Assembly: GCA_013377075.1 (NCBI GenBank)
Contig: JACABD010000003.1
Coordinates: 31,200 to 75,192, forward strand
Direction of reading: 5' to 3'
DNA length: 43,993 nt
Source: Geobacteraceae bacterium
GTDB taxonomy: Bacteria; Desulfobacterota; Desulfuromonadia; Geobacterales; DSM-12255
This document shows, in pieces, positions 4,931 through 43,993 of this stretch (its first letter is position 1; every line of letters begins with the position of its first letter). The notes beneath the pieces were generated by a model. That model worked only from the letters and a program-made list of their open reading frames with translations, did not search any database and had not been told where the DNA came from. The position numbers and the translations under genes are program-made.

Positions 4931-4966
4931 CGTAAAATCCCCCCTTACACCGGACGAATCTATTAA

Positions 4967-4984
4967 AAGCAACAAATATGCCAG
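4967..4984 (-). promoter_or_regulatory. Sigma-54 (-24/-12) promoter of the PEP-CTERM genes
   Basis: On the minus strand the sequence CTGGCATATTTGTTGCTT fits the consensus TGGCAC-N5-TTGC with exactly ten bases between the GG and GC dinucleotides. The only core mismatch is T for C at the end of TGGCA(C). The GC of the -12 element is at 4970-4969, about 40 bases before the GTG start of the PEP-CTERM gene. The neighbouring prsR encodes a sigma-54 activator. Enhancer sites were not resolved in the 95 bases upstream. Confidence 0.75.
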
Positions 4985-5080
4985 TAATATTCAATGTGGC
5001 GAGTTAATAGATCAGGGAAAGATTTTAGCGATGGGCGTCTATAAGAAAGGGATGATGCCTAATTTCAGCTACAGTTGGTT

Positions 5081-6445: not shown

Positions 6446-6492
6446 TGTACAACTCCCACAAAACAATTTTTATCAGTTCACTGTCCTGAAGT

Positions 6493-8550: not shown

Positions 8551-8611
8551 GACGGTATATCCATTAAGAGTCAGTTTGACAGCGGCTAGACATACTGCGA
8601 TAAAAATAAGC

Positions 8612-23114: not shown

Positions 23115-24318
23115 AGGCTCTCCGGTTTTGCAGCGACAGTTTGTGAATGATGATCGTCATGGCGATGATGAAGTACGCTCCCGTCTGGTACGCCCAGGAG
23201 AGAAAAACCGAGCCGACACAGAGCCCAAAAAGGCTTGCCATAACCCCGTCTGCCAGCCACGGTCTGATAAAGTTGAAACGTTCGCTGTGCAGACTTTTGA
23301 AGGAGTTGACAAGCATTGCGATAAAAGCTGCCAGTCCGGCAACACCAAGCTCAGCACCTATCTGCAGGTAGGCATTGTGGGCTGTGTGCCAGTTCCCCCC
23401 GGCAGCCCGACCGTTGGCAGAGGTAAGCTGCCCAAGACCACAACCGAACACCGGGCTCTCCATCATAACACCCCAGGAGAGTTTCCAGAGTTCAGTGCGT
23501 GACTCAGGGGGGGTATTTTTCGGATCACTGCTCTCAACACCAAAAACAGTCATCATCCGCTCCAGCTGCTCCGGGGGAGAGTTGACAACGATTATTGCTG
23601 CAAATACCAGAAAAAACGGCAGGCACTTCAGGGCATATCTTGCACCCTTTTGGTAAAGCAGCATGGCAGTCACTGCAATAAGAGTCACAAAGCCGCCGCG
23701 AGAGCCGGTCTTTAGCACGACAACGGCAATTATCCCCATTGTCGCAATCAACAATAAACGCATCCCCCCCTTGCTGTCCTCTTGCAGATAAAAGAGCAGC
23801 GGCAGGGAGATAGTCAGAATCAGGGCCAGGTCGTTCGGATCATAGGTGCTGCTGACGTAAATACGCCCCAAAGTATCATATGGAGAAATCAGGGCTACCG
23901 TTGCCAGTGCCAAAGCACTCAGACAGTACGCGCGGATAACCATCAGCAGCTTCTCTTCAGTATTGACGCACTTTACCAGTAGATAGATGAATAAAAGCAT
24001 CTTCAGAAACCCTTCGAAAACATCTATAGAGCCACCCGGCCAGTCACTGAAGGGGATGCCGATCAGAGCGAGAACCATAATTACCGTAATGTACCGGCTC
24101 TGGGGGATCTGTTTAAAATCATTGAAACTGTCAATATATTTGGACTTGTTTTGCAAATAGGCAAACAGACTGATAACCATAGCAATTTTGGCTATGGAAA
24201 AACGTTCGAGGCTGGGGATAAGCTCCTGAATCCTGCCGACATAGATAGGTACAAGCAAAAGAACCATATTAAAGAGAAAGCTGCTCTTTTCAGGAGTTTC
24301 ATAGGTTACTCTTGTCAT
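23104..24318 (-). CDS. O-antigen ligase / polymerase-like membrane protein
   Basis: A polytopic membrane protein of 404 residues with ten or more helices. The ATG at 24318 forms an ATGA overlap with the upstream gene; the longer frame from 24336 is less likely. The Wzy_C domain is seen as LKTGSRGGFVTL (about 202-213), a periplasmic loop with ESRTELWKLSWGVMMESPVFGCGLG, and NWHTAHNAYLQIGAELG with histidines near 311 and 314, the ligase signature. Family members are WaaL ligases, Wzy polymerases or the 'O-glycosylation ligase' of exosortase loci. As export here looks ABC-type, a ligase that attaches glycan to lipid A or to sorted proteins is favoured over a Wzy polymerase. Confidence 0.82.
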   Translation of the reverse strand: MTRVTYETPEKSSFLFNMVLLLVPIYVGRIQELIPSLERFSIAKIAMVISLFAYLQNKSKYIDSFNDFKQIPQSRYITVIMVLALIGIPFSDWPGGSIDVFEGFLKMLLFIYLLVKCVNTEEKLLMVIRAYCLSALALATVALISPYDTLGRIYVSSTYDPNDLALILTISLPLLFYLQEDSKGGMRLLLIATMGIIAVVVLKTGSRGGFVTLIAVTAMLLYQKGARYALKCLPFFLVFAAIIVVNSPPEQLERMMTVFGVESSDPKNTPPESRTELWKLSWGVMMESPVFGCGLGQLTSANGRAAGGNWHTAHNAYLQIGAELGVAGLAAFIAMLVNSFKSLHSERFNFIRPWLADGVMASLFGLCVGSVFLSWAYQTGAYFIIAMTIIIHKLSLQNRRAYAG

Positions 24319-25889
24319 CGTAAAACCTTTACCCATGCATCCCTGTTTCTAAGCAGCATCTCTGCGTATCTCCCCTGCCCGTACAACAATCTTACCAGCT
24401 CATTGGAAAGTAGCGAGCCCTGCGCCCCATCAATTGTGAATTTTTGATAATATTCCACATTTTTTGCTTCGCTGATCAACTGATCCATGATCGCCTTGGT
24501 CACCTTGTCGTATGGGAAAAAGCCCCCTTCACCCGGGGGGATGCCAAAAATCAAACCGTTGATAACTATTTTGCGCTTGCCGTTTGCCGGTTGAGCCGTT
24601 GCCGGAAGCGCTGCATACTCCTTGAAAGTGATGAGGCGCAAAGAGTCGCTAAAACCCAGATAGAAGGAGAGCGCCTGAAGAGTCCGCTCGTCAGAGACTA
24701 CTGACTCTGGTCTGTCCGATTTGATAAAGCCAGCCACAGCCTCGGCACTGCGCCCGATCTTTGCGGTAAAGCCACTATTTCTGTTCAGATAGACCAAAAC
24801 GGTCGAGATGGTTACTACAGCGGCAACCAGAGTGGCTAAGGCTGCTTTTGTCTTGATACCCCCACCTGCTGCTGACATAACCCGAATCAGCTCAGCAGTC
24901 AGAATAATCATGGGGATGCAGGCAGGATAGATGAGGCGCAGGGCTGGAGGAAGAACGATGTAGTGGTGAATACTCACGGACATGAAGTTATAGAAGGCCA
25001 GGAAAGAGAAGGCCCAGACAAACAGAAATACGTTTTTTCGGAATAAAAGCAGTGAACCGGCCACACCAAGCAGAAGCAGGTAGCCGTAGAGGCCAAGACC
25101 ATTTTGCGGATAGATAAAAAAGGAGAGGTAAGACTTGAGCAACCGGTAAGCCAGCTCGGCGTTTGCCCCCACCAGCATGGGGTCGGAGGTGTAGGTGCCG
25201 CCAAGGTGGGTAAAACGGTAGAAGAAATGACCATACACCCCCTTGTGATAAAGGAGTTCACCGCAGACAACAGTGATGAATCCGACCGGGAAAAGCAGGT
25301 CGCTCAAGGAGAGTCTGCGGCGCAAAAGTTTGTAAATAAAGAGCACCACCAGCATTACGGCGCTGGCTTCGGTTGTCAGGTAGCCAAGGCCGACCAGAGT
25401 TCCGGTTGCATACTTTTGCAGGTTACAATAGCGCGCCCCACCCCTTTCGGATTTGAGGAAAAGGAGCGCCGCGCCGCTTGTAAATGCGCAGAGCATCGGC
25501 TCAGGCACAAAAAAGCTGCCAAGAAAGAGAGTCAGCGGGAAAAAGGCGAAGAGCAGAGCCGAGAGCCGGGCAGTGGCAGCACCATAGAGCTTCCTGGCAA
25601 TAAAATAGATGAAAATCGTTGTCAGCGTGGAGCAGAGCACCGGGATTAGGGCAAGGGAAAACTGACTGATGCCAAAGAGCTTGAACGACAATGCCAGAGG
25701 GATGTAAGTGCCGATACGGCCAATCTGGTGTGATGTGCCGGGGAGGGCAAAGCCGTTTTTTAGAATTGCGGAAGCCTTCAGAGCATAGCCAAGATCATCG
25801 GTTGCCTGCATGCCGGGGTAAAGCATGGTGACAAGGATAATGGTCAGCAGTGCCAGAGCGGAGCAGTCCCGGATGGTTTCCTTATTCAC
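24315..25889 (-). CDS. Membrane glycosyltransferase family 39 (PMT/ArnT-like)
   Basis: A polytopic GT-C glycosyltransferase of 524 residues. The GTG start has GGAGG four bases upstream and overlaps the GT2 stop. The first loop carries the acidic pair in MQATDDLGYALKASAIL, the catalytic hallmark of GT39/83, followed by DLGY in place of ENY. Helices include LALIPVLCSTLTTIFIYFIA and LSALLFAFFPLTLFLGSFF, then a loop with VPEPMLCAF. About eleven helices precede a periplasmic C-terminal domain. These enzymes use polyprenyl-phosphate sugars on the outer face of the inner membrane. Target could be the glycan, lipid A or exported protein. Confidence 0.82.
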   Translation of the reverse strand: MNKETIRDCSALALLTIILVTMLYPGMQATDDLGYALKASAILKNGFALPGTSHQIGRIGTYIPLALSFKLFGISQFSLALIPVLCSTLTTIFIYFIARKLYGAATARLSALLFAFFPLTLFLGSFFVPEPMLCAFTSGAALLFLKSERGGARYCNLQKYATGTLVGLGYLTTEASAVMLVVLFIYKLLRRRLSLSDLLFPVGFITVVCGELLYHKGVYGHFFYRFTHLGGTYTSDPMLVGANAELAYRLLKSYLSFFIYPQNGLGLYGYLLLLGVAGSLLLFRKNVFLFVWAFSFLAFYNFMSVSIHHYIVLPPALRLIYPACIPMIILTAELIRVMSAAGGGIKTKAALATLVAAVVTISTVLVYLNRNSGFTAKIGRSAEAVAGFIKSDRPESVVSDERTLQALSFYLGFSDSLRLITFKEYAALPATAQPANGKRKIVINGLIFGIPPGEGGFFPYDKVTKAIMDQLISEAKNVEYYQKFTIDGAQGSLLSNELVRLLYGQGRYAEMLLRNRDAWVKVLR

Positions 25890-27786: not shown

Positions 27787-28679
27787 GGATCACCTACCCT
27801 TGTCCATGACAACGGCAGCAGGTCTTCGGTATTGGCATCCAGCTTGTCAAACCACTTTGCCGGTGCAAAAACAGTTTTATCCGGATTTGTGCCGAGCCAG
27901 GCTCCCCACCAGCTGAAGGAGCTGTTGGCAATGATATGGTGCTTGCAACGGCTCATCAGCAAGAGCTCTTCCTGGGGGGTTGCACCAGTGTCAACAAGTG
28001 TCATCTGACTTGGCAGACGGAAACTCTCGTGCACCCAGGCCATGTCGTCGCTAAAAACATAAAAGCTTGGATTCCCAAGCTTTTTCACCATCAAGGCTGC
28101 ACATTTGAGGTAATAGTCCATGGAGCAGAGACCGTGGGCATCACTGGCAACTTTGCTATGGACATAATCGCCGCGCCTGATATGAATCGACACGGCATTT
28201 TCCCCGGTTATCCGCTCTGCCAGCCTTGATGCCGGTGACGATTGGGGGGCTTTCAATGTGAACTCACGACGAAGTGTATCGCCAATATCGCAAAAATACT
28301 TTTCCGACTGCCAGTAACCATCAAGGTAGGTGTTGTCCGGAGCAGACAAAATCGATGGGTCGAAATGGAAATGCCTCTCCTGAAGATAATGGGGGAGATT
28401 CCTTGCGAAGCCGCACATCTTACGGAAGTTGTGCAGATAACCGGCAAGGGGGTTATAGATGTGACGGGAGAGGCGAGCTATTTCGGGGCGAGTTGCAATT
28501 GTAGCAGAGACATTATACTTCCCAAGCTCATAGACTCTAGGTGTGTAGTTTGTCTGGGGGCCCTCCAGAAAAGTAATGTCGAGCTTCAGCTCAGTTTTGT
28601 GAAAATCGGCCAGGCGTCTGGCCGCAGCATATTGAAACATCTGGTTGCCGAGACCACCTGTTAGCTTAACGACAATCAT
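27783..28679 (-). CDS. Alpha-1,2-fucosyltransferase, family GT11
   Basis: A GT11 enzyme of 298 residues. The N-terminus MIVVKLTGGLGNQMFQYAAARRLA is diagnostic. The GDP-fucose motif HIRRGDYV lies at 166-173, and the C-terminal motifs are FYVFSDDMAWV, EELLLMSRCKHHIIANSSFSWWGAWLG and KTVFAPAKWF. These are all the conserved GT11 blocks, so activity on GDP-L-fucose (or rarely a related GDP-sugar) is expected, adding alpha-1,2-linked fucose to galactose or similar. GDP-fucose synthesis genes are not in the window. It overlaps its upstream neighbour by four bases. Confidence 0.92.
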   Translation of the reverse strand: MIVVKLTGGLGNQMFQYAAARRLADFHKTELKLDITFLEGPQTNYTPRVYELGKYNVSATIATRPEIARLSRHIYNPLAGYLHNFRKMCGFARNLPHYLQERHFHFDPSILSAPDNTYLDGYWQSEKYFCDIGDTLRREFTLKAPQSSPASRLAERITGENAVSIHIRRGDYVHSKVASDAHGLCSMDYYLKCAALMVKKLGNPSFYVFSDDMAWVHESFRLPSQMTLVDTGATPQEELLLMSRCKHHIIANSSFSWWGAWLGTNPDKTVFAPAKWFDKLDANTEDLLPLSWTRVGDP

Positions 28680-29428
28680 GATTGTTCCCAGAATCGGATT
28701 TTACAGGAGTTTACCCAGGAAGAAACTCTTTGCCGAATGCTCGTTACGGTTGAAACTTCAATCAGGACATAGCTGTGCAGTTTCGAATGATGAAACATCG
28801 GCTTTTGCCCCGCCCCGAAAAAAACCGTTGCCGGTTTTTTCAAGGCCGCGGCCAGTGTGGCTGCACCGGATGAGAGACAGTAAAACCGGTTACAGGAGAG
28901 AATCAGATCACAGAAGTCTTCAAGAGTCGGTGTATCCAGCTCCTGATTAACTGGAATATCAATGGCAATATTTCTCTGCCGCATTTTGTAGTCTATTTTC
29001 ACCTTGTTTTTCCTGACATATCTGGAGAGATCATATGAATGGATATTGCCGACGTAGGAGACGTAATTCGGGTCGTAAATATTACGATCTGTCAGTTGGG
29101 GCACAGCTTTGGGAGTGTAATAAATTTCCGGATCATGCCACCTCTGGCCATCATCCAGCCCAAGATCCAGCATGATTCTGTCAAGCAGGTTTTCATCATT
29201 CCCCACTTCGGCAAACTCCGGATAAAGACCATCTGCATCAACAAAGCCATCAAAGTAGGGATTTGTCTCCCAGACAAGGGTTCGGTAGTCGGGATGCCTG
29301 AACTCGGATTTTGTTGAGAGCATCACCCTTTCATACGTGCCCGACTCTTTGGCAATTCTCGGAATATGGCTGTAAAAGAGGTGATCCCCAAGTCCGCCAT
29401 ACTTTATTTGCAGGATAAGGTCAGCCAT
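28676..29428 (-). CDS. GT9-like glycosyltransferase
   Basis: A short protein of 250 residues. It opens with LILQIKYGGLGDHLFYSHIPRIAKE, the GD-motif start of GT9 (heptosyltransferase-like) proteins. A C-terminal block FYCLSSGAATLAAALKKPATVFFGAGQKP corresponds to the donor-binding S/G-x-T-A segment of GT9. It is shorter than typical GT9 enzymes (about 330-350), so the linker between domains is reduced. It overlaps the next gene by four bases and the previous by eight. The glycosyltransferase role is inferred from fold motifs and context. Confidence 0.65.
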   Translation of the reverse strand: MADLILQIKYGGLGDHLFYSHIPRIAKESGTYERVMLSTKSEFRHPDYRTLVWETNPYFDGFVDADGLYPEFAEVGNDENLLDRIMLDLGLDDGQRWHDPEIYYTPKAVPQLTDRNIYDPNYVSYVGNIHSYDLSRYVRKNKVKIDYKMRQRNIAIDIPVNQELDTPTLEDFCDLILSCNRFYCLSSGAATLAAALKKPATVFFGAGQKPMFHHSKLHSYVLIEVSTVTSIRQRVSSWVNSCKIRFWEQS

Positions 29429-31842: not shown

Positions 31843-32588
31843 ATCCTCCGTAGCACGAAGCAGACCCCCCAGGTCTGCTCACCCGGCTCTGCTCCACTAA
31901 GGAACTCTTCGGCGCGGAGCCGTTCAAAACCGGCTGCTTCTGCCAATAAATCCAGCTCAGGGATGGAGAAGTGGCGCATCGGGTGGGATTCGCTCAACGT
32001 TGAAAACTGACCATTGCTTTTTTGCAGCGCGTGAATGGTGTAATTGACATCTATACGATTCTCATTGGGCCAGGAAACTGGCTCGGCAATCCGGGTAACC
32101 TCAAGGTCGTCATCTAACAAGCGCTTGACACGCACTTCCGGCTTCTGGGCATACACCGCCGGTGAATACCAGACATCAAAAAGAAAGAGTCCTCCAGGCA
32201 GAAGGTGCTCCGCAGCCCTGGAAAAAACGCCCTGCACATCGCTGTTACCGGTCTGGTAGCTGATGACATGGAACAGGGAGATGACGGCATTAAATGTCCT
32301 CCCCAGACTGACAGCACGAATATCCCCCTGCTGGCAGACAAAACCATCAGCTGGAGCTGCCTTGGCGACCATTTCGGCGCTCCGCTCAATGCCGATAACC
32401 TTATAACCACGCTCTGCCAGCAGTCGACCATGCTTGCCGGTTCCGGAACCGAACTCAAGCAGATCAGAGCCGGCAATGCCGTAGCGCTTCAGCAGAGCAT
32501 CGATATACCCGGCTTCTGCAGCATAATCCTTATCCTGATACAAAAGATCATAATAGCGACCATAGACATCAAAAAGTTTTTCACTCAT
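31839..32588 (-). CDS. Class I SAM-dependent methyltransferase
   Basis: A Rossmann-fold methyltransferase of 249 residues. Motif I is DLLEFGSGTGKHGRLLAERG, followed by KVIGIERSAEMV (acidic E at the end of beta-2), then FNAVISLFHVISYQTGN (post-II region) and LLPGGLFLFDVWYSP. It starts in an ATGA overlap with the cupin gene and ends over the aminotransferase start. This tight trio suggests that it methylates the aminosugar made by the aminotransferase, on N or O. That is an inference from order. Confidence 0.83.
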   Translation of the reverse strand: MSEKLFDVYGRYYDLLYQDKDYAAEAGYIDALLKRYGIAGSDLLEFGSGTGKHGRLLAERGYKVIGIERSAEMVAKAAPADGFVCQQGDIRAVSLGRTFNAVISLFHVISYQTGNSDVQGVFSRAAEHLLPGGLFLFDVWYSPAVYAQKPEVRVKRLLDDDLEVTRIAEPVSWPNENRIDVNYTIHALQKSNGQFSTLSESHPMRHFSIPELDLLAEAAGFERLRAEEFLSGAEPGEQTWGVCFVLRRI

Positions 32589-33022
32589 CCCTCTCCCCTC
32601 ATCTCAAGGCGATTCTTATCAACTCCCTCAAATCGAGTCTTGTCCTTGTCCCCGGCATATGGCCCCTGCTTCACCTCGATCATCTCTATCTCTTCCAGCG
32701 CCTCGAAACCATGACCACCGGAGGCAAGAAGAATTGTATCACCGGCAGCAATGACTGTGCTCTCCAGATAGTTGCGCTCTTCATCGTAGAAATCTACCCG
32801 CAAACGCCCTTTTTTCAGAAATAGCACCTCCAGAGTCAGGAACACATCTCGATGCACCGGATTATGAACGTGGGGGTCGATAACCTTGCCAACCGGATGG
32901 TTCATGTAGGCAACCTGCTGGGAGAATTCATTCGGGGTGAAAAAGTGAACGCCCGGTTTGCTGAATTCATTGCGGATAATTATTGCCAAGAGGGCTTCGT
33001 TATGGGATATGCGGTCTATCAT
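32585..33022 (-). CDS. Cupin-fold protein
   Basis: A small single-domain cupin of 145 residues. Motif 1 has H51, H53 and H57 (PHVHNPVHRDV) with E65 (TLEVLFLKKGRLRVDFYD); motif 2 has GDTILLASGGHGFEALEE (H104). This gives a metal-type site. The family is like WbuC/sugar-cupin proteins in O-antigen clusters, whose function is largely unproven. Some related cupins are sugar isomerases or epimerases. It precedes a methyltransferase and an aminotransferase with ATGA couplings. Confidence 0.75.
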   Translation of the reverse strand: MIDRISHNEALLAIIIRNEFSKPGVHFFTPNEFSQQVAYMNHPVGKVIDPHVHNPVHRDVFLTLEVLFLKKGRLRVDFYDEERNYLESTVIAAGDTILLASGGHGFEALEEIEMIEVKQGPYAGDKDKTRFEGVDKNRLEMRGEG

Positions 33023-34045: not shown

Positions 34046-35290
34046 TCAATTGGAAATTCCGATGACTTTTAAAATATTGTCTGCGGCTGACTTGGCTGCG
34101 GTTCCATTGTTGTAACGAATTTTTTCAACAAAAAGCTCCCGTTCATGCATCTTGTAACCAGGTGTATTAATGGCAAATCTTACGGTAGAAGCCAGATCGG
34201 TTATCTTTTCAACCAGAAAACCGACATGACGTCCGGCATTGGATTTTGGGTCGTTTTTTATGTATTCAGCCGTAGTAGGCCCATAGTTTTTGTACAGTCC
34301 TGGCAGAGTTGTTTCAAAGAAATCCGGGCAGTCAATATAAATGACCGGTTTTTTCATCAGCAAAAACTCCAGTGCAGCACCGCTTATGTCGGTAATCATT
34401 ATGTCACTGGCCGCCAGCAGTGGGTCAATATCATCACTAATTATGTTTCTGATATTTTTGCGGGATAAATATCTATCAACCACCATCTGCCAGTTAGTGC
34501 CACCGGTGTAAAAATCATATGAAGGGTGGCTCTCGGGCACGCAGCTCCCCGGATGGAGCTTTACAAGAACATTGAATTCAGTCAGTAGAGCCAGCTGGTC
34601 AAAGAGCTGCAGACCAAAAGCCCTCAATGACAACCCCTCTTCCCACGAAGGAGCATAAAGAACAGTGGGTTTATCTGAACACAGACCAAACTCTTCAAGG
34701 ATTGCCTGTCGCCTGTAATGTCCACTCAGGAGTTTATCCGACTTGGGGAGTCCAACATCCAACAGTGAAATATCCTTCTTTATACCGTAGTAGGCAATTG
34801 TGAACTCAGTCTGCTGCCGATGCAAAAGCCCGGTCAAAAAATGTACGTCGTATTTCTCAAATGGCTCTTTGGGAAGGCAGGCAAATTTTACCGGGTGGCC
34901 ATGGGGCATATGCACCTTTACAACCCGCTCTGGAGCTTCCCCCCAGATGTGGGGAGAAAGAAACATATTGGCTGCATACATACATTTTGACAGCTTGTAG
35001 TTGAAGGTGTGATAGTAATCTGAATTAACTCCGTCAATGGCCGGACAGACAGTTTTGTACCCTGTGTAATATGACAGTTTATTCGTAGAAATTTGAAGCT
35101 GCCTGATAACAGGGCTGATAAAAGGGAGCAGTGTCACCTCTTCGAGGTCAAGAATGATGACCCGCCTCCCCTTCAGTCTGTCAATCAGCATCAATACATT
35201 GACAACAAGCACCTTAAGGAAGGCTGTTATTGCGGCAAATGAAACATATCGCCTGAATGTCACTATGAATCTTGGCAAATTAAAGCTCAT
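34046..35290 (-). CDS. CDP-glycerol:glycerophosphotransferase-like (TagB/TagF family)
   Basis: A protein of 414 residues with an N-terminal hydrophobic/amphipathic stretch. The TagF-like domain has KVHMPHGHPVKFACLP, VLYAPSWEEGLSLRAFG, FNVLVKLHPGSCVPESHP and IISDDIDPLLAASDIMITDISGAALEFLLMKKPVIYID. HGH, KLHP and DISGAALEF are the conserved blocks of CDP-glycerol glycerophosphotransferases. A TagD-like cytidylyltransferase directly upstream, overlapping by 11 bases, could supply CDP-glycerol. The product would be a glycerol-phosphate branch or polymer on the glycan, unusual but known in Gram-negatives. Transfer of another CDP-polyol is possible. Confidence 0.82.
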   Translation of the reverse strand: MSFNLPRFIVTFRRYVSFAAITAFLKVLVVNVLMLIDRLKGRRVIILDLEEVTLLPFISPVIRQLQISTNKLSYYTGYKTVCPAIDGVNSDYYHTFNYKLSKCMYAANMFLSPHIWGEAPERVVKVHMPHGHPVKFACLPKEPFEKYDVHFLTGLLHRQQTEFTIAYYGIKKDISLLDVGLPKSDKLLSGHYRRQAILEEFGLCSDKPTVLYAPSWEEGLSLRAFGLQLFDQLALLTEFNVLVKLHPGSCVPESHPSYDFYTGGTNWQMVVDRYLSRKNIRNIISDDIDPLLAASDIMITDISGAALEFLLMKKPVIYIDCPDFFETTLPGLYKNYGPTTAEYIKNDPKSNAGRHVGFLVEKITDLASTVRFAINTPGYKMHERELFVEKIRYNNGTAAKSAADNILKVIGISN

Positions 35291-35699
35291 TGCGTAGTTT
35301 CTTCAATGTTTCATTGAGGATGGTTGATGATGTCCCCTTTGTGTAAGGGAAGTAGACGATTTTGACACCGACCTCATTGAACTGCGCTTCCAGCTGATGC
35401 CATTTCTCGCTCTTGTACCAGTCATCCCCGACAAACATGACATCAAAGCGGATTTTACTCCACATCTCCATCTTATCCATTGTCTCCTGAGGTATTACGG
35501 CATCTACATATTTTATGGCGCGGACGATCTCCATCCTCTCAGTAAAGGGGATTACAGCCTTTTTGAATTTGTAGCTGACCAGCTCATCTGTTGTTACCCC
35601 GACGATCAATTTGTCGCACATCCCTTTTGCGTTGCGCAGCAGATTCAAATGTCCGATATGAAAAAGATCGTACACGCCTGTTGTATAGCCGACTATCAT
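35280..35699 (-). CDS. tagD: Glycerol-3-phosphate cytidylyltransferase-like (TagD)
   Basis: A nucleotidyltransferase of 139 residues, the normal TagD length. The signature TTGVYDLFHIGHLNLL holds H14 and H17 of the HxGH site, followed by LIVGVTTDELVSYKFKK and a final GTSSTIL motif, the equivalent of R-T-x-G-I-S-T/ISST in the family. It likely makes CDP-glycerol from CTP and glycerol-3-phosphate. Variants use other phospho-alcohols. ATGA overlap with the DUF362 gene upstream, and coupling to the CDP-glycerol-type transferase downstream, support the assignment. Confidence 0.85.
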   Translation of the reverse strand: MIVGYTTGVYDLFHIGHLNLLRNAKGMCDKLIVGVTTDELVSYKFKKAVIPFTERMEIVRAIKYVDAVIPQETMDKMEMWSKIRFDVMFVGDDWYKSEKWHQLEAQFNEVGVKIVYFPYTKGTSSTILNETLKKLRNEL

Positions 35700-37150
35700 G
35701 ACTCACCTCCGGAATTTATCGACTTGTTACTTGCATTGATTGACAGATTTGGCCAGTTGGATGGGGGGGCAAAATCAAGGTAGGAACGTTTACTGGCAAA
35801 GAAATCCATGGTTTCGTAATCGCCAGACTCGACGTTCACTTTTGCAAGATCAAGGTCCAACCTTTTCAGCAGCTCGGCAATATAGCGGATCTCCATGACA
35901 TTGAAATCCATCATCCGGGCAGAAACTGAATCAACCAGCACCAGATGCTCGCCAGTAATAATAGTTTTGGCCTCTTTCCTGCCGGTGCAGAACGGGCCGT
36001 TGCCGTCCCCACCGATGACACCGTCCACCACGGACAGGCATTTACGTTCCCGGCTCATAAGCGCAAGATACAGATCTGCCGCCATACGCCAGCAGGTGTC
36101 GTTACCCTCCCATGAACCGCAGTAATGCCCAACAGTAAACATCCTGTCTATTGCCCCCCCCTTTAATCTCTTTGCAATGGAAGCACGTAAAAACTCCGGG
36201 GTTAGATCTGAAGCAATATGCTTGAGAGCCAGAAGCAGATGGTCACGCTTATTTTCCGGCTCCGGATACTCATCCCCGCCCCAGGAAGGGAAGCCAATGC
36301 GCCAGTGGATCAGGTAATTCTTTTTGGTACACATGCCAACCAGCCCCTTCACATTAAGGGTTGCACCTACCTTGTGATGGGTTTTCAGCTTCGGGATCGA
36401 AATATAAACATCTGCCGTATAAATACTGTTGGCAACAGCATACTCCTGGGTTTTCCCATGGTGATGGCGGATCGTCTCCCATCGATTGGTAAAAACCCCC
36501 CTGAACAGCAGTGCGTTCAGATTGTAAAAAAATGATTTTTCACCAAGGTTAACCACTGTATCCCCCAGCGGGTCACCGGGCAGTTTTTTCATCAAAGATT
36601 TATTGCCATAAAACTTGATGTTGTCGCACCAGACTTCGCGCAGGTCGTTAACAGTGCAATCGATACCATGAGTCTGCCTGTAAAAGGCCGCAAACCGGTC
36701 ATAGCCTGTCGCTGCCATCTGCACAGCAAAGTTCGTATCAATTGTAGGATTGTCACCTATTACTATTTGCCCCTTACCTTTCAATGCAATGACAACATAA
36801 TCAGCAACAGCCCGTACCACCGAAGGGTGTGTGATAATGGAGAAGAGATCGCCGGTCAGTTTCTCTTTTTTACGGCCATACTCGTGGGAACAGAGATTTG
36901 GCTTTATAAACACTCTATCGCCTGGCTTGACAAGATGCCCGAGCGGATTCCATGAAGCAGTACCTATGTTTTCTCTGTCATATCCAAGCAGCTCAAAGTT
37001 TTTGCGGACAGCTCGATAAACGTCATTCCGGGAATCTTTGGCAATGCTGCCAGAATACTCCGGGAATGCCTCATCGGGATCGAAGGGAAAGTTTTCTGGA
37101 TAGCCGCTTGCAGCCGTTGACAAGGCTATGGAGTAATCAGTTTCTCCCAT
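35696..37150 (-). CDS. DUF362 domain protein
   Basis: A protein of 484 residues with no signal peptide. The DUF362 core is recognised by VKPGDRVFIKPNLCSHE, HPSVVRAVADYVVIALKGKGQIVIGDNP, SIYTADVYISIPKLKTHHKVGATLNVKGLVGM and the C-terminal LSVVDGVIGGDGNGPFCTGRKEAKTIITGEHLVLVDSVSARMMDF. No ferredoxin-like CxxCxxC cluster is visible, unlike many DUF362 proteins. Biochemical function is unknown. It lies between the asparagine-synthase-like gene and tagD with overlaps of one and four bases, so it is part of the same decoration module. Confidence 0.82.
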   Translation of the reverse strand: MGETDYSIALSTAASGYPENFPFDPDEAFPEYSGSIAKDSRNDVYRAVRKNFELLGYDRENIGTASWNPLGHLVKPGDRVFIKPNLCSHEYGRKKEKLTGDLFSIITHPSVVRAVADYVVIALKGKGQIVIGDNPTIDTNFAVQMAATGYDRFAAFYRQTHGIDCTVNDLREVWCDNIKFYGNKSLMKKLPGDPLGDTVVNLGEKSFFYNLNALLFRGVFTNRWETIRHHHGKTQEYAVANSIYTADVYISIPKLKTHHKVGATLNVKGLVGMCTKKNYLIHWRIGFPSWGGDEYPEPENKRDHLLLALKHIASDLTPEFLRASIAKRLKGGAIDRMFTVGHYCGSWEGNDTCWRMAADLYLALMSRERKCLSVVDGVIGGDGNGPFCTGRKEAKTIITGEHLVLVDSVSARMMDFNVMEIRYIAELLKRLDLDLAKVNVESGDYETMDFFASKRSYLDFAPPSNWPNLSINASNKSINSGGES

Positions 37151-38202
37151 TATAAAATCTCACCTTTATCAAGTAGATTGAGAAAACGTTCCAGACAGTA
37201 AAGCTGCCACTTCTGCTCACCACTGAAATGACTAATATCTAACCCCTTCACAAACTCCGGCCTTGTCGGGCCGCTCCAGCTGGACAACCACTGTGTAACC
37301 GGCCTTGCAAATGGTATTTTTGCAGGGATTTCAACGTCGGGACATACAGTTCGAAAGACCTCGGAAAGGATATACTTGGGCTCTCCAGCACGGATCCGCT
37401 GTATATCAAGTGGCGCATCAAGTGCCAGCTCCTCGAAGGGGGCGATCAGGGAGCAGCCCCCAGCGTGTATGGCATTCTCAAACATCTGGATAATGCCGAG
37501 GCCATGCACAACCTTGAGAAACCCCATAACATTAAAACCGGTATCCGTTCGATAACGCTCATAAATGTCAAGCATCGATACCGGTCTCCCAAGGGCAAGC
37601 ACTGGGTCAAGAAAGGTATACCGCTTAACAAATTCGTCAAAAGTCCAGTCCCTTGACAACAGTTTATCCATCCCGCCAAAAGTTGAATCAGCACCATTGC
37701 CAACAGCCAAAAACTTGATCCCGTCTCTTCTGGCACAGGACGATGCGATGTAGAGACCTGCTTCCGCGGGGTGAAGCGGTGCTTTTTTATGCTTCATCAA
37801 CATATCCATGCAGTCAAGATAGTCACCCCAGCAGACATCAACTACATGGTGCTCAAGTCCGAGTTTTTCAGCCACTGCTCTGGCAGCAGGCGCTTCATCC
37901 ACTGCATCGACGGCGGTGAACCTGATCGTATAGGCTTTTGTTCCTCTTGGCATAAGGGCGGCAATGATTGCCGAATCCATACCAGCGCTAAGTAAAACCC
38001 CAGTGGTGGATACATCGGCGTGTTCAGCAACGATGCTGCGCAGCTGTTGTAGAACCTCTGCCGCGGTTTTAACCTTGATCTTCCCCTGAGCAGCGGCATC
38101 GGGAAAGGGAGGAATAATGCCATGTTTCCAGGCAGTATCCGGTTTCGCCACATAGCGGAATGTGAGGTATGAGCTAAGGCAGAAATCAAGGTCTACTCGC
38201 AT
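37150..38202 (-). CDS. Asparagine-synthase-like ATP-PPase lacking glutaminase
   Basis: An AsnB C-terminal-type ligase of 350 residues. The PP-loop is VLLSAGMDSA (71-77 region, SAGMDS in place of SGGLDS), followed by YTIRFTAVDAVDEAPAARAVAEKLGLEHHVVDV and a GNGADSTFGG motif where classic AsnB has GEGADE-FGG. A normal AsnB has a 200-residue N-terminal glutaminase starting with Cys2; here only about 50 unrelated residues precede the synthetase domain. It should adenylate a carboxylate and join it to an amine or ammonia from elsewhere. Amidation of a uronic acid (as WbpS does in Pseudomonas O-antigen) is a reasonable guess. GGAG lies six bases before the ATG. Confidence 0.82.
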   Translation of the reverse strand: MRVDLDFCLSSYLTFRYVAKPDTAWKHGIIPPFPDAAAQGKIKVKTAAEVLQQLRSIVAEHADVSTTGVLLSAGMDSAIIAALMPRGTKAYTIRFTAVDAVDEAPAARAVAEKLGLEHHVVDVCWGDYLDCMDMLMKHKKAPLHPAEAGLYIASSCARRDGIKFLAVGNGADSTFGGMDKLLSRDWTFDEFVKRYTFLDPVLALGRPVSMLDIYERYRTDTGFNVMGFLKVVHGLGIIQMFENAIHAGGCSLIAPFEELALDAPLDIQRIRAGEPKYILSEVFRTVCPDVEIPAKIPFARPVTQWLSSWSGPTRPEFVKGLDISHFSGEQKWQLYCLERFLNLLDKGEIL

Positions 38203-38225: not shown

Positions 38226-39500
38226 TTATAAGTTAAGCTGCTTTGTTTCCCATTTTAACGGTAGGGCAAGCAGGACATCCTTTCGTGCGCCGCTCCAGGA
38301 GGCTGCATATGAATCAACATCGGTTATTTCAAACGCCGGTCCCTGCTGCTCGTCAAGAAGATGGACATTGGGGACTCCACACGCAAAGGAAAGGTAGTAT
38401 TCGCCCGGAGCCAGGGTGTTTTCCGGTATGTTGAACCTGACACGATAGTGACCGGCTTCTCGTATCTCCAGATGCTCCGGCGTCATATCCACATCAGCAG
38501 TCGTCATTATATGCACATCACGAGAGCTCCAGAGGTGGCAGACTATCTGCACCTGCTTTGCGGCAGATGGGACTACATAATCCAGTACAATTGCAACTGG
38601 TGAGGCCAGACCAATTATTGACTGGGGGCAGACACCATCCACACCAACAAATGACCTCACAAAATGGAGGTTATCAAGCTCTCTCCCATATTGACATTCA
38701 GCACTGCGTGAACTCCCTTTGGACAAATAATAATTAACTACTGATGCAGCATCATCGATAATATCGACCTTCCCATAATCAAGTAACAGGGCGCGCTGAC
38801 AAAGAGACTCAACAGCTGCCATGTTATGACTGACAAACAGCACTGTCCGCCCATCCTTGCCGACCTCCCCCATCTTGCCGAGGCACTTTTTCTGAAACTG
38901 GGCATCCCCAACGGCCAGCACCTCATCGACAATCAGTATTTCAGGCTCAAGATGGGCAGCTACACCGAAGGCAAGGCGCACATACATCCCAGATGAATAG
39001 CGTTTTACAGGTGTATCAATGAACTTTTCCACTTCGGCAAAATCAACAATCTCGTCAAACTTGCGGCGAATTTCATCTTTGCCCATGCCGAGGATTGCGC
39101 CATTAAGAAAGATATTTTCCCTACCGGTCAGCTCCGGGTGGAACCCGGTACCGACTTCCAGGAGGCTGGCAATCCGCCCCTTGTAGGTTACTTGCCCCCT
39201 GGTGGGTGTAGTCACCTTGGAAAGGATCTTCAACAGGGTGGATTTACCAGCACCATTGCGACCAATAATGCCGATGAGATCACCACGCTTGACCTCAAAG
39301 GAGACATCCTGAAGTGCCCAGAATCGATCAACTTCAGAGGAGGGATGAGAGTTGAGGGATGAGATTTGGGAGTTGGGATCTTCCTTGCCACGCATCCTTG
39401 CCCACCAACTTTGCAGATCCATAACCATGCTGTGATGGCTGATGGTTCCGAGTCGATACTCTTTCCAGAGGTTTTCAACTTTTATAACCACGTCTGACAT
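38226..39500 (-). CDS. wzt: ABC transporter ATP-binding protein Wzt with C-terminal glycan domain
   Basis: The ATPase of an ABC-2 polysaccharide exporter, 424 residues. The ATG at 39500 has AGGGA six bases upstream; a longer frame to 39563 would overlap wzm. Walker A is GRNGAGKST (80-88), signature RYSSGMYVRLAFG, Walker B ILIVDEVLAVGD. Before Walker A is a variable linker, EDPNSQISSLNSHPSSE, coded by a low-complexity repeat (39339-39380). The C-terminal third (about 270-424) is a beta-rich Wzt_C-like domain (VQIVCHLWSSRDVHI, YRVRFNIPENTLAPGEYYLSFACG), which in O9a-type systems reads the polymer end cap. It is paired with wzm. Confidence 0.92.
   Translation of the reverse strand: MSDVVIKVENLWKEYRLGTISHHSMVMDLQSWWARMRGKEDPNSQISSLNSHPSSEVDRFWALQDVSFEVKRGDLIGIIGRNGAGKSTLLKILSKVTTPTRGQVTYKGRIASLLEVGTGFHPELTGRENIFLNGAILGMGKDEIRRKFDEIVDFAEVEKFIDTPVKRYSSGMYVRLAFGVAAHLEPEILIVDEVLAVGDAQFQKKCLGKMGEVGKDGRTVLFVSHNMAAVESLCQRALLLDYGKVDIIDDAASVVNYYLSKGSSRSAECQYGRELDNLHFVRSFVGVDGVCPQSIIGLASPVAIVLDYVVPSAAKQVQIVCHLWSSRDVHIMTTADVDMTPEHLEIREAGHYRVRFNIPENTLAPGEYYLSFACGVPNVHLLDEQQGPAFEITDVDSYAASWSGARKDVLLALPLKWETKQLNL
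39339..39380. repeat. Degenerate GATGAG/AGTTG repeat inside wzt
   Basis: The plus strand reads GGGATGAGAGTTGAGGGATGAG followed by ATTTGGGAGTTGGGA (split here for length): GGGATGAG occurs twice (39342, 39356) and AGTTG twice (39350, 39371). It codes for the non-conserved NSQISSLNSHPSS linker of Wzt. A related tract lies in wecC (41148-41180). Confidence 0.5.
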
Positions 39501-39510
39501 GCTCTGTCCC

Positions 39511-40368
39511 TTAAACCGTATCCATAAAGTTCTTCTCAACCCTGCTGAAGAGAATGATGCCAATAAAAAGGATTATCACTGTTGCCATAAGACTTTGACC
39601 AATCTGCCAGAGGTTAATAGTGCCAACGCCGAGAAAGGTAAAGCGAAACATCTCAACAACAGGCGTCATCGGATTGAGAGCAATTACCCACTGCCATCTA
39701 TCTGGAACCTGGGACGAAGGATAGGCAATTGGGGTTGCGTACATCCAGAGTTGGACACCAAAACCGACTAATTGAACCAAATCCCTGTATTTAGTGGTAA
39801 GGGAGGAAACTATTATGCCAAAGCCAAGCCCAAGAGCAGCAATCTGAAGGATCAACAGTGGTAGTGCCAATATGTAGAGCGGGTTGAATCCTATTACTGC
39901 CCCTTGAAAATTATAGAAAATAAGAATTGCAATAAAGAGAGTCATTTGGATAAAAAACCCTATCAGCCCACTGATAACAACTGATAGTGGCACTGACAAC
40001 CTGGGGAAATAGACCTTGCCAAAAATACCGGCGTTATTGACAAAAGTATTGGATGTCCTGTTGAGACAGCCGGAGAAGTAGCTCCAAACCGTCAGCCCGG
40101 CAAAATAAAAGAGAGTCGGCGGAACGCCGTCAGTCGGAATTTTAGCAATATTACCAAATACAAAGGTAAAGACGATTGTGGTCATGATTGGTTGCAGCAG
40201 ATACCAAAGTGGGCCGAGTATCGTCTGTTTGTAGACGGCAACAAAGTCTCTGCGAACAAATAACATTATCAGGTCGCGGTAGCGCCAGAGATCAGTCAGA
40301 TGCAGATCGAACCATCCTGATACCGGACGGATAATTTGTAATACTTCTGTTTGGCTGTTTTCTGTCAT
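39511..40368 (-). CDS. wzm: ABC-2 polysaccharide export permease Wzm
   Basis: The membrane subunit of the exporter, 285 residues with six helices. The ATG at 40368 follows the wecC stop by four bases; the longer frame to 40434 lies inside wecC. Family signatures are LHLTDLWRYRDLIMLFVRRDFVAVYKQTILGPLWYLLQPIMTTIVFTFVFG near the N-terminus and WMYATPIAYPSSQVPDRWQWVIALNPMTPVVEMFRFTFLG near the C-terminus. With Wzt it moves undecaprenyl-linked glycan across the inner membrane. Length is normal. Confidence 0.93.
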   Translation of the reverse strand: MTENSQTEVLQIIRPVSGWFDLHLTDLWRYRDLIMLFVRRDFVAVYKQTILGPLWYLLQPIMTTIVFTFVFGNIAKIPTDGVPPTLFYFAGLTVWSYFSGCLNRTSNTFVNNAGIFGKVYFPRLSVPLSVVISGLIGFFIQMTLFIAILIFYNFQGAVIGFNPLYILALPLLILQIAALGLGFGIIVSSLTTKYRDLVQLVGFGVQLWMYATPIAYPSSQVPDRWQWVIALNPMTPVVEMFRFTFLGVGTINLWQIGQSLMATVIILFIGIILFSRVEKNFMDTV

Positions 40369-40372
40369 AGTA

Positions 40373-41617
40373 TTACCGCCAGATACCCCGTGTATCGATA
40401 ACAACTTTTTCCTTGAGAAGATCCCGGTCAACATCGCTAAAGTCGGAGTGATCCACCAGGACCACCAGTATGTCGGCTTCGCATACTACCTTTTCCAGAT
40501 CGTGGAGCTCAAATCCCGCCCTGGCGCTGCTCACATATGGGTCGCAGACCATTACCTCTCCTAGCCCAAGCTTCATGATATTCCGGGTTATCTCCATGGC
40601 AGGGGACTCGCGAATATCATCTACATCGGCTTTGTAAGAGAGGCCAAGACAGCCGATTACCGGCTTTACAAATCGCTCTGCCCGCTTGCGCACCCGCTCT
40701 ACCACCCAGTGGGGCTTGGATTCATTTACTTCACGGGCAGCCCTGATGAGTTTAGCCTGCATTGGTGCTGCGGCAACTATGAACCATGGGTCAACGGCAA
40801 TACAGTGGCCGCCAACTCCGGGGCCGGGTTTGAGAATACTGACCCTTGGGTGCTTGTTAGCCAGCTCGATCAGCTCCCAGACATTGACCCCGAGCAGGTC
40901 GCAGATCATGGAGAGTTCGTTGGCAAGGGCAATATTGACATCGCGGAAGGTGTTTTCCGTCAGCTTCACCATCTCGGCAGTACGGGCATCGGTCAGAAAG
41001 ATATTGCCGCTACAAAAGCTCTTGTAAAGATCCCTGGCTTTTGTCGCCGAGGCCTTGTCAATGCCGCCAATAACCCGATCATTGTCCACCAGCTCCCGGA
41101 TGATCCGCCCTGGCAGCACCCGCTCAGGGCAATGAGCAATAAAAACAGCTGATGAGAGATGATGGTTGAGAGTTGACTCAAACAGATCGGGACGGAGTTC
41201 ACGAATTATGTCGCGAACCCGCTCGGTAGTCCCGACCGGTGATGTGGATTCGAGGATGACCAGATTACCCTGACTCAGAAAAGGTGCGATACTTCTGGCT
41301 GCAGCCTCAACATAGGAGATATCAGGGGCAAAGGGGTTGTCTTCGGTGGCAGCAAAGGGGGTTGGTACGGCAATAATGAAGGTGTCAGCCTCTTCCGGCG
41401 CAAGGGATGCCTTGAGGTTTCCACTGTTCACCGCCGACTTGACGAGAATATCCAGATCGGGCTCGACGATATGAATTTTGCCGCCATTGATGGTGTTGAC
41501 AATTTCGGCAGAGAGATCAACACCAACAACCCGATATCCCTTGGTCGCCATTATTGAGGCGGTTGGAAGACCTATGTAACCGAGCCCCATGACAACTATT
41601 TCAGTTTTATGATCCAT
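40373..41617 (-). CDS. wecC: UDP-N-acetyl-D-mannosamine dehydrogenase (WecC)
   Basis: An NAD-dependent dehydrogenase of 414 residues that oxidises UDP-ManNAc to UDP-ManNAcA. Rossmann motif GLGYIGLPTA (11-20); IIAVPTPF; ILESTSPVGTTERV; AHCPERVLPGRI; KLTENTFRDVNIALANELSMICD; nucleophile C272 in GVGGHCIAVDPWFI; and LGLSYKADVDDIRESPA. The STSPVGTTE and ERVLPG segments separate WecC from TviB. A short low-complexity insert (STLNHHLSSA, about 148-157) lies between the Rossmann core and AHCPERV, coded by a repeat tract. GGAG lies six bases upstream of the ATG. The partner 2-epimerase WecB is absent from the window. Confidence 0.93.
   Translation of the reverse strand: MDHKTEIVVMGLGYIGLPTASIMATKGYRVVGVDLSAEIVNTINGGKIHIVEPDLDILVKSAVNSGNLKASLAPEEADTFIIAVPTPFAATEDNPFAPDISYVEAAARSIAPFLSQGNLVILESTSPVGTTERVRDIIRELRPDLFESTLNHHLSSAVFIAHCPERVLPGRIIRELVDNDRVIGGIDKASATKARDLYKSFCSGNIFLTDARTAEMVKLTENTFRDVNIALANELSMICDLLGVNVWELIELANKHPRVSILKPGPGVGGHCIAVDPWFIVAAAPMQAKLIRAAREVNESKPHWVVERVRKRAERFVKPVIGCLGLSYKADVDDIRESPAMEITRNIMKLGLGEVMVCDPYVSSARAGFELHDLEKVVCEADILVVLVDHSDFSDVDRDLLKEKVVIDTRGIWR
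41148..41180. repeat. Degenerate GATGAG/AGTTG repeat inside wecC
   Basis: The plus strand carries GATGAGAGATGATGGTTGAG then AGTTGACTC. It shares GATGAGAG and TTGAGAGTTGA-like units with the tract in wzt 1.8 kb away. It falls at a non-conserved loop of WecC and keeps the frame. Confidence 0.45.
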
Positions 41618-42853: not shown

Positions 42854-43993
42854 TCAATTCTGTTTATAATTGAGCCCCTGGAAGGTTTTAGTTACAAAAA
42901 CCATTATCCTGTTAGCTTCTATAGGCCCTATTGGGCTAAAAAAGCTGTCAGAGTAGGCTATCCTGTTATAGTCAATGCCGCAGTATAAATCCTTGTAGAC
43001 TTCGTACTTCACCCCTGCAGTAAATAAATTCCGATACAGATCCCTGCTGTTGTTCAGATATTTGTCGGTGCTTAATGAAAAATGCGATGTAACTCTTAGT
43101 GTAACTAGATGGGAAACATCAATACCTGTCGTGAACCATTGGCTGTTAGCATTATCTGTACTGTTGATCGTATCATTATATCTGCCGTAAATACCAATCA
43201 CCCCCCGCGAGTAGTCACGCTCAATACGACCACTTACACTTCTGCGTTCCGAACTTGATAGCCCAGGATCATTATCAAAGGTAACGCCGCTATCGAGGGA
43301 AAATCTGTATTGGTCAACCGCTTGAAGGATACCAACATTCCAGAATGGCGATGTTGTGGTTGAGCCGCCACTGGCAGGAAAGAAGATCGAATAGCCCGCC
43401 TCTGCATGGATATTTGAATCTTTTGCATGTCTGTATTCTGCACCGACAACATGGGTCAATCGGTCGTGAGATTGCCCGGTTTCAGGGATTATCCGGCTGT
43501 AGTCAGCTTTTGTGTAGACATTGCTTCTTGGACCAGTATCCCTTGTCAGCTTGAGAAAGCCGCCATGCTCTTCATTGTTGATGCTCTGACTACCCGAGTA
43601 GCTCCTGTTTACGTAGCGATAACCGGCGCTTGCTGACCATCTTGGGTTTATACGGTAATCAATGTAGGGTGAAACGGAGAAAATATTCTGATTGTAAAGA
43701 TTTGCATACTGGGTCTGCCGGTTGCCATCAAAGGAATTCTTCTTGTACTCGTCAGAAATATTCAGGTAGAGAAAGTTGTCGATAAGCCTTATATTGCCGG
43801 CCGCAAGCAGGTTATGTCGCAGTTCGTTACCTTGTTTTCCGCTATGGAACATTATGTATTCAGGTTCGTAGTTTAAATTCCATGTCCATAGTCTGGAGTT
43901 GTAATCGCCCTTTAGGGAAGGGCTTATATGGGTTATAAAGCCGGAGAGGCGGTTACTCCTTGTTTCGTAAATATTGTCGTTGTACTCTTCCAG
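42854..43993 (-). CDS. PEP-CTERM system-associated outer-membrane beta-barrel (5' end outside window)
   Basis: The frame is open from the stop at 42854 to the right edge, giving the last 379 residues. An internal Met at 43852 is not the start, since the extension (LEEYNDNIYETRSNRLSGF, then ITHISPSLKGDYNSRLW) matches the conserved N-terminal barrel strands with DDN-like and P-x-L motifs. The remainder is alternating amphipathic strands rich in Tyr/Arg/Ser (YIDYRINPRWSASAGYRYVNRSYSG; HVVGAEYRHAKDSNIHAEAGY) and ends with an aromatic terminal strand. This fits the TIGR03016-type outer-membrane protein found in XrtA exopolysaccharide loci. It may be the outer-membrane outlet or an accessory of the exporter. 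Confidence 0.82.
   Translation of the reverse strand: MEEYNDNIYETRSNRLSGFITHISPSLKGDYNSRLWTWNLNYEPEYIMFHSGKQGNELRHNLLAAGNIRLIDNFLYLNISDEYKKNSFDGNRQTQYANLYNQNIFSVSPYIDYRINPRWSASAGYRYVNRSYSGSQSINNEEHGGFLKLTRDTGPRSNVYTKADYSRIIPETGQSHDRLTHVVGAEYRHAKDSNIHAEAGYSIFFPASGGSTTTSPFWNVGILQAVDQYRFSLDSGVTFDNDPGLSSSERRSVSGRIERDYSRGVIGIYGRYNDTINSTDNANSQWFTTGIDVSHLVTLRVTSHFSLSTDKYLNNSRDLYRNLFTAGVKYEVYKDLYCGIDYNRIAYSDSFFSPIGPIEANRIMVFVTKTFQGLNYKQN

Follow-up and report, generated by a model that had tools for sequence, protein, structure and literature searches.

A mobile glycan cassette in a Geobacteraceae genome with a LarA-like DUF362 protein, a candidate user of the nickel-pincer nucleotide

A stretch of 43,993 nucleotides from a Geobacteraceae bacterium (contig JACABD010000003.1; the whole stretch is called the window below) carries a four-gene module encoding an AsnB-like synthetase, a DUF362 protein, a TagD-like cytidylyltransferase and a TagF-like transferase. 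As judged from gene content and sequence comparison, this module is a mobile cassette that works through a cytidine diphosphate (CDP) derivative of a group X, CDP-X, rather than a plain CDP-glycerol path, and its last enzyme is exchanged between occurrences. Structural modelling suggests that the DUF362 protein combines the N-terminal domain fold of LarA, the nickel-dependent lactate racemase, with the residues by which LarA anchors its cofactor, the nickel-pincer nucleotide (NPN), which hints at the role of this very widespread family. Linkage, folds, residue conservation and co-occurrence point, with our confidence evenly balanced, to a cassette for the synthesis and transfer of a three-carbon (or similar) hydroxy-acid phosphate that bears an amide and is activated by CDP. 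It is proposed more tentatively, at somewhat less than even confidence, that DUF362 proteins are non-LarA users of NPN, carrying it on a conserved lysine (K268) with a histidine (H282) as nickel ligand.

The four genes lie on the minus strand and overlap by 1 base (37150), 4 bases (35696-35699) and 11 bases (35280-35290), as described in the first-pass annotation of the window, which had been made from the sequence alone. Pfam supports all four family names, and none of the proteins reaches any NCBIfam equivalog cut-off.

37150..38202, minus strand: AsnB-like synthetase half, 350 aa, a PP-loop ATP-pyrophosphatase (PF00733, E 4e-24)
35696..37150, minus strand: DUF362 protein, 484 aa (PF04015, E 2e-23, 84.1 bits against a gathering cut-off of 24)
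35280..35699, minus strand: TagD-like cytidylyltransferase of a distinct subfamily, 139 aa (PF01467, E 1e-20)
34046..35290, minus strand: TagB/TagF-like CDP-X:glycan phosphotransferase, 414 aa (PF04464, E 6e-15, 55.5 bits against a gathering cut-off of 22.1)

Recurrence of the cassette and its shared enzymes

Relatives of the module were sought across 395 genomes from the window's phylum, a plasmid collection and viral contigs, with the Bacillota sampled as plasmids. DUF362 relatives of the glycan type were found in 10 of the 395 phylum genomes and the AsnB-like protein in 2 of them; the module is missing from the host's own genus and family, so that vertical context is uninformative. The trio of AsnB-like, DUF362 and TagD-like genes was found in three unrelated places outside the window, at about 39-70% protein identity. 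In G025, a genome from another class and family than the window's, the order AsnB-DUF362-TagD is kept, with identities of 56%, 50% and 71%, respectively; no TagF-like gene adjoins the trio there, and a convergent CDP-alcohol transferase gene is present instead. Viral contigs L030 and L031 have the trio, each with a LicD-type gene. The first-pass annotation had raised the prospect that all four genes recur together; the trio does recur, but the exact four-gene set is found only in the window, and the transferase is swapped elsewhere.

Smaller sets were found on further viral contigs, with TagD and AsnB on L033 and AsnB, TagD and a LicD-like gene on L034-L036 and L115. Six Lactiplantibacillus plantarum plasmids hold an exopolysaccharide (EPS) cluster with a TagF-like gene, TagD (62% identity) and a full-length AsnB-like protein (35%), without DUF362. 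The constant part of the cassette is the AsnB+TagD pair, and DUF362 is usually present in the closest relatives. Because this pair stays constant while the transferase families change, the most likely role of AsnB, and of DUF362 where it occurs, lies in making X or completing CDP-X, not in decorating another sugar. No relevant description of AsnB with a cytidylyltransferase in EPS was found in the literature searched.

Contigs L035, L115 and L038 are phages by their nearby major head and portal genes; the flanks of L031 gave no clear hallmark, and the AsnB-like protein has no relative among annotated phages. A conserved phage cassette lies at L034:3125-9074, L035:2902-9113 and L115:3765-10557, near the major head gene in L035 and L115, and contains epimerase-like, split transketolase, AsnB, TagD, LicD-like, methyltransferase and glycosyltransferase-like genes.

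The first-pass annotation had seen a clear CDP-glycerol path in the TagD and transferase genes, which the data do not support. The TagD-like protein scores 94.1 bits on TIGR01518 (glycerol-3-phosphate cytidylyltransferase), below the equivalog cut-off of 165.4, and in alignment to 1coz it reads YTKGTSST in place of the RTEGISTT signature. Its nearest relatives in the tree are those that travel with an AsnB-like gene. The AsnB-linked members need 1 label change on this tree against 8.4 in shuffles, with that single branch poorly supported (21/69), and the group of six formed by the window, G025, L030, L031, L033 and Lactiplantibacillus is supported at 84/85. In nearly all contexts examined, the TagD-like genes of this group lie near a CDP-X transferase, which belongs to one of three unrelated families: TagF-like, LicD or CDP-alcohol transferase. 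The window's own TagF-like protein matches the TagF structures 3l7i-m and 8qoy by sequence, misses the TarF equivalog (28.7 against 550 bits) and has no relative in the plasmid collection. Phosphonate chemistry was also considered, a phosphoenolpyruvate (PEP) phosphomutase cytidylyltransferase domain being among the TagD matches; no PEP mutase was noticed in the window, and no search aimed at one was made.

In the AsnB-like protein, the TIGR01536 match starts at model position 232 of 517, and the N-terminal class II glutaminase domain is absent. A structural model with a predicted local distance difference test (pLDDT) score of 77.5 matched the synthetase halves of the TsnB9 hydroxyamidotransferase (Z 21.3), human ASNS (19.4), carbapenam synthetase (18.3) and beta-lactam synthetase (17.8). 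Residues L71, S72, G74, D76 and S77 are invariant across all 7 relatives aligned. At the position of the catalytic Glu348 of E. coli AsnB, and in what is a small sample, Asn is found in the four DUF362-linked proteins (window, L017, L030 and L031) and Glu in the DUF362-less L028, L034 and L035. The AsnB-like protein probably adenylates a carboxylate, and the nucleophile may differ between the Asn169 and the Glu versions.

37972..37989, minus strand: PP-loop motif SAGMDS, AsnB-like residues 72-77, corresponding to the SGGxDS motif
37696..37698, minus strand: Asn169 of the AsnB-like protein, in the place of E. coli AsnB Glu348 (phmmer alignment to 1ct9)
35649..35660, minus strand: HIGH nucleotidyltransferase motif (HxGH), TagD-like residues 14-17, read from the translation and invariant in the subfamily

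The DUF362 protein and the nickel-pincer nucleotide

The DUF362 protein was modelled from a ten-sequence alignment, with a pLDDT of 79.3 and a predicted template modelling score (pTM) of 0.86. The only strong structural matches are of the LarA type, with Z of 15-17 over 216-244 residues, and the next unrelated fold scores 6.6; the match to the LarA N-terminal domain has a Z of 16.9 over 220 residues and a root-mean-square deviation of 3.0. The top Foldseek matches are LarA-like NPN enzymes with a single catalytic histidine, a type that has been described (PMC12611868), and DUF362 and the LarA family belong to one Pfam clan (PMC11770544). The first-pass annotation was right that this DUF362 protein has no Fe-S motif, as no cysteine is found among the invariant columns of 18 relatives. 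Canonical Fe-S DUF362 proteins form the bridge to LarA, since the profiles of the window's DUF362 protein and of LarA both match them over one stretch and in one register. In LarA, Lys184 and His200 bind NPN and His174 is catalytic (PMC7583248), and the profile alignments place the following equivalents.

36377..36379, minus strand: His258 of the DUF362 protein, equivalent to the catalytic His174 of LarA (via canonical DUF362; invariant in 45/45)
36347..36349, minus strand: Lys268, equivalent to the NPN-binding Lys184 of LarA (via canonical DUF362; invariant in 45/45)
36305..36307, minus strand: His282, equivalent to the cofactor-interacting His200 of LarA, a nickel ligand (via canonical DUF362; invariant in 45/45)

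Together with these three, K83, D133 and K256 complete the checked positions that are invariant across 45 DUF362 proteins; the 45-row alignment leaves out one further row, L214, a wrong-frame pick. A kinase or a ferredoxin was also considered for the DUF362 protein and dropped, given the LarA-type fold and the lack of a conserved cysteine in the glycan members. A sequence search of the PDB with the DUF362 protein gave nothing usable, a BFVD fold search found nothing, and the plasmid collection held no relative. In the literature searched, no description of DUF362 in polysaccharides and no paper tying DUF362 to NPN was found.

The supply of the cofactor was examined through its biosynthetic genes. 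The window's genome (G000) encodes LarB, LarC and LarE (contigs C2, C68, C74 and C44), and no LarA was detected in it, the only Lar_N match there being a DUF362 protein. In the class, 27 other genomes of 117 lack a true LarA; LarC is present in 20 of these 27 and DUF362 in the identical 20, both being absent from the remaining 7 (Fisher P 1e-6). These genomes are related and the independent evidence is smaller than the count, as five of the seven double negatives belong to one family and two fall within a genus that otherwise has both. In a published survey, larBCE occurred in the absence of larA in about 15% of the genomes, and its authors call the NPN-using protein in them unidentified (PMC11796402).

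The gene neighbourhoods of DUF362 were examined at 19 loci of the glycan type. At all 19, an ATP-dependent carboxylate-activating enzyme lies no more than two genes away, against about 7.2 of 19 expected from the other genes of those loci, the class "carboxylate-activating" having been defined after inspection of the loci. The activator is of the AsnB type at 4 loci, a PaaK/CapK-type AMP ligase at 10 and an ATP-grasp enzyme at 5 (weak for L021 and L161). Such neighbours fit a DUF362 protein that works on a hydroxy acid before the carboxylate of that acid is activated; racemisation of glycerate is known for homologues of LarA (PMC11770544).

A second, viral DUF362 module was observed, consisting of a CapK-like AMP ligase, DUF362 and a UDP-sugar dehydrogenase (L156:3653-7714, L157:3734-7654, L158:3641-7612 and L160:2172-7590); in L160 another open reading frame lies between the CapK-like ligase and DUF362. 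At L005:1182-4911 and L018:6400-10235, DUF362, a GNAT acyltransferase and a CapK-like ligase are consecutive, an arrangement suggestive of amino-sugar N-acylation by a hydroxy acid.

Proposed pathway and competing explanations

In the scheme proposed for the cassette, the DUF362 protein, probably NPN-loaded, would invert C2 of an alpha-hydroxy acid such as 3-phosphoglycerate, or carry out another hydride transfer on it. The AsnB-like protein, whose class is assigned from fold and motifs, would adenylate the carboxylate and couple ammonia or another small amine to give an amide. By analogy with their families, the TagD-like protein would join the phosphate to cytidine monophosphate (CMP), and the TagF-like protein would move phospho-X onto the glycan as a phosphodiester, a step that LicD or a CDP-alcohol transferase would take elsewhere. 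The AsnB and TagD steps could come in either order. The C2 geometry of D-3-phosphoglycerate is opposite to that of sn-glycerol-3-phosphate, the normal TagD substrate, and since this geometry is wrong for a TagD-type site, a racemase-like step ahead of TagD would be reasonable. D-glyceramide 2-phosphate occurs in the O-antigen of Providencia alcalifaciens O22, as cited in PMC6222762. Glyceramide is favoured for X because of this phosphorylated O-antigen component and the C2 geometry, though as a specific identity it would be an unlikely guess.

Several suggestions of the first-pass annotation bear on this scheme. It had proposed a new glycan decoration, with an amide- or phosphoglycerol-bearing group; the genes are indeed coupled and a group bearing both amide and phosphate is probable, but a clear CDP-glycerol path is not supported. 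Its idea of DUF362 as a missing enzyme has gained ground, as the protein looks like a real enzyme step, by way of a LarA link that had been overlooked. Its statement that the ligase and DUF362 have no place in teichoic-type chemistry understates the case for AsnB, given the phosphorylated glyceramide mentioned above (PMC6222762).

An ordinary CDP-glycerol path, in which TagD and the TagF-like protein attach glycerol phosphate and the AsnB-like and DUF362 proteins are passengers modifying another sugar, would account for the combination of TagD with PF04464, the classic CDP-glycerol pair, and for close TagD relatives that lie beside LicD or TagF-like genes without AsnB. It is considered unlikely, since the AsnB-like and TagD-like genes are adjacent in phylum genomes, Bacillota plasmids and phages despite different transferases and neighbours, and the TagD-like protein falls under the glycerol-3-phosphate cytidylyltransferase cut-off. 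The AsnB-like protein might otherwise, with the help of DUF362, amidate a uronic acid of the glycan, for example N-acetylmannosaminuronic acid (ManNAcA), leaving the addition of glycerol phosphate to TagD and the transferase. AsnB-family enzymes do amidate uronic acids, a UDP-ManNAc dehydrogenase is encoded at 40373-41617 of the window (585 bits against a cut-off of 459), and in phage relatives DUF362 is flanked by a CapK-like ligase and a UDP-sugar dehydrogenase. However, the annotation around the Lactiplantibacillus pair includes no uronate dehydrogenase, none was matched next to the G025 and L030 cassettes, and AsnB tracks TagD rather than the dehydrogenase, which makes uronate amidation quite improbable. 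The CDP-X scheme has to contend with difficulties of its own: the CDP-alcohol transferase gene of G025 is convergent and outside the operon, Lactiplantibacillus and several phages have AsnB+TagD without DUF362, and with Asn in the place of Glu348 the nucleophile of the AsnB-like enzyme may not be ammonia.

A further alternative concerns the DUF362 step only and is compatible with the rest of the scheme. The protein could have the LarA fold without NPN, its invariant lysine and histidines binding phosphate or catalysing amine or acyl transfer from an adenylated acid, in keeping with the carboxylate-activating enzyme that is always nearby. LarA superfamily groups 12, 13 and 16 have been judged unlikely NPN users (PMC7583248), and an appreciable, if minority, share of our confidence goes to this NPN-free reading. 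Several points are to be set against NPN use. Direct hhalign comparison of DUF362 with LarA is weak and not significant (probability 2%, E 0.023), and it is the fold and the canonical DUF362 bridge that carry the link; this weak alignment still pairs His258, Lys268 and His282 with His174, Lys184 and His200. The window's protein has no Lar_N (PF09861) score, only PF04015 being listed, whereas canonical DUF362 proteins pass Lar_N. DUF362 has no conserved histidine at the place of LarA His108, Arg75 of LarA could not be placed as the alignment is unreliable in that region (K83 and D133 being invariant instead), and the aligned LarA residues end at 298-299, leaving the C-terminal domain with Lys298 outside the match. 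The absence of LarA from the window's genome may reflect its incompleteness (95.5%). LarC and DUF362 do not always coincide among 14 reference genomes: S. elongatus and H. volcanii agree with the pattern, having LarC and DUF362 and no Lar_N, but DUF362 is missing from C. glutamicum and M. jannaschii, which do have LarC, and one DUF362-positive control, B. ihuae, lacks LarC. In favour of NPN use, the three kept positions are the cofactor and catalytic positions of LarA, retained in a diverse set of 45 sequences, the 27 LarA-less genomes have either both LarC and DUF362 or neither, and LarA-like NPN enzymes with only one catalytic histidine, which are also the top Foldseek matches, are known (PMC12611868).

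Locus context and known systems

The cassette belongs to a long glycan locus on one strand, in which genes for a Wzm/Wzt-type exporter lie immediately upstream of the AsnB-like gene.

38226..39563, minus strand: Wzt-like ABC exporter ATPase (ABC_tran E 1e-21, Wzt_C E 2e-5)
39511..40434, minus strand: ABC-2 (Wzm-like) permease (PF01061, E 7e-20)

Because these exporter genes share the cassette's strand, with gaps or overlaps of less than 60 bases, the operon is probably larger than the four-gene set. The locus also bears XrtA/PEP-CTERM exosortase parts (4217-10129, 23104-24336 and 42854-43852), with PrsR and PrsK over their cut-offs and an exosortase-EpsI fusion, together with a weak putative O-glycosylation ligase, a choice-of-anchor E protein and a PEP-CTERM outer-membrane-like protein. 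Two further proteins of the glycan locus have no Pfam family (28676-29428, 250 aa; 32585-33022, 145 aa).

If DUF362 is an NPN user, this would explain the many genomes that make NPN without LarA, and within the cassette its hydride chemistry would act on a hydroxy acid, the precursor of a CDP donor bearing an amide. The LarA fold, the cofactor lysine and histidine, and a presence and absence matched to larC allow DUF362 to be tested directly as the NPN user of such genomes. The cassette itself would be a recurrent, mobile way of decorating the surface glycans of bacteria, and possibly phage-modified ones too, with three types of transferase that can replace one another.

Among known systems, the TagD/TagF (TarF) pathway of wall teichoic acid shares the cytidylyltransferase, the PF04464 transferase and the expected phosphodiester product; the window differs in a TagD below the equivalog cut-off with an altered signature, in the coupled glutaminase-less AsnB and DUF362, and in its place in an exosortase/ABC-exporter glycan locus. 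LicC/LicD phosphocholine and FKTN/FKRP-type systems likewise move a cytidylyltransferase-made CDP-X to a sugar, and the phage cassettes use LicD, but in the cassette AsnB and DUF362 are proposed to act in making X, and the window transferase is TagF-like. The Campylobacter O-methyl phosphoramidate capsule pathway also has a dedicated cytidylyltransferase and an unusual nitrogen-bearing CDP donor, and uses a glutamine kinase to form a P-N bond; it is not known to involve AsnB or DUF362, whereas a carboxamide is expected in the window. Providencia alcalifaciens O22, for which no biosynthesis or gene-cluster paper was found in the literature searched, shows at the level of chemistry that glycans can contain a phosphorylated, amidated glyceric acid.

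The individual enzymes compare in a similar way. The LarA lactate, malate and glycerate racemases share with DUF362 the N-terminal domain fold and the equivalents of His174, Lys184 and His200, but the match covers only that domain, and DUF362 has no His108 counterpart, other gene partners and its own Pfam family. AsnB, TsnB9 and the carbapenam and beta-lactam synthetases share the synthetase-half fold and the PP-loop with the AsnB-like protein, which differs in lacking the N-terminal glutaminase domain and in having Asn for Glu348. As a whole, the cassette would be a variation on the known kind of CDP-X glycan decoration, with a possible new enzyme class, DUF362, inside it.

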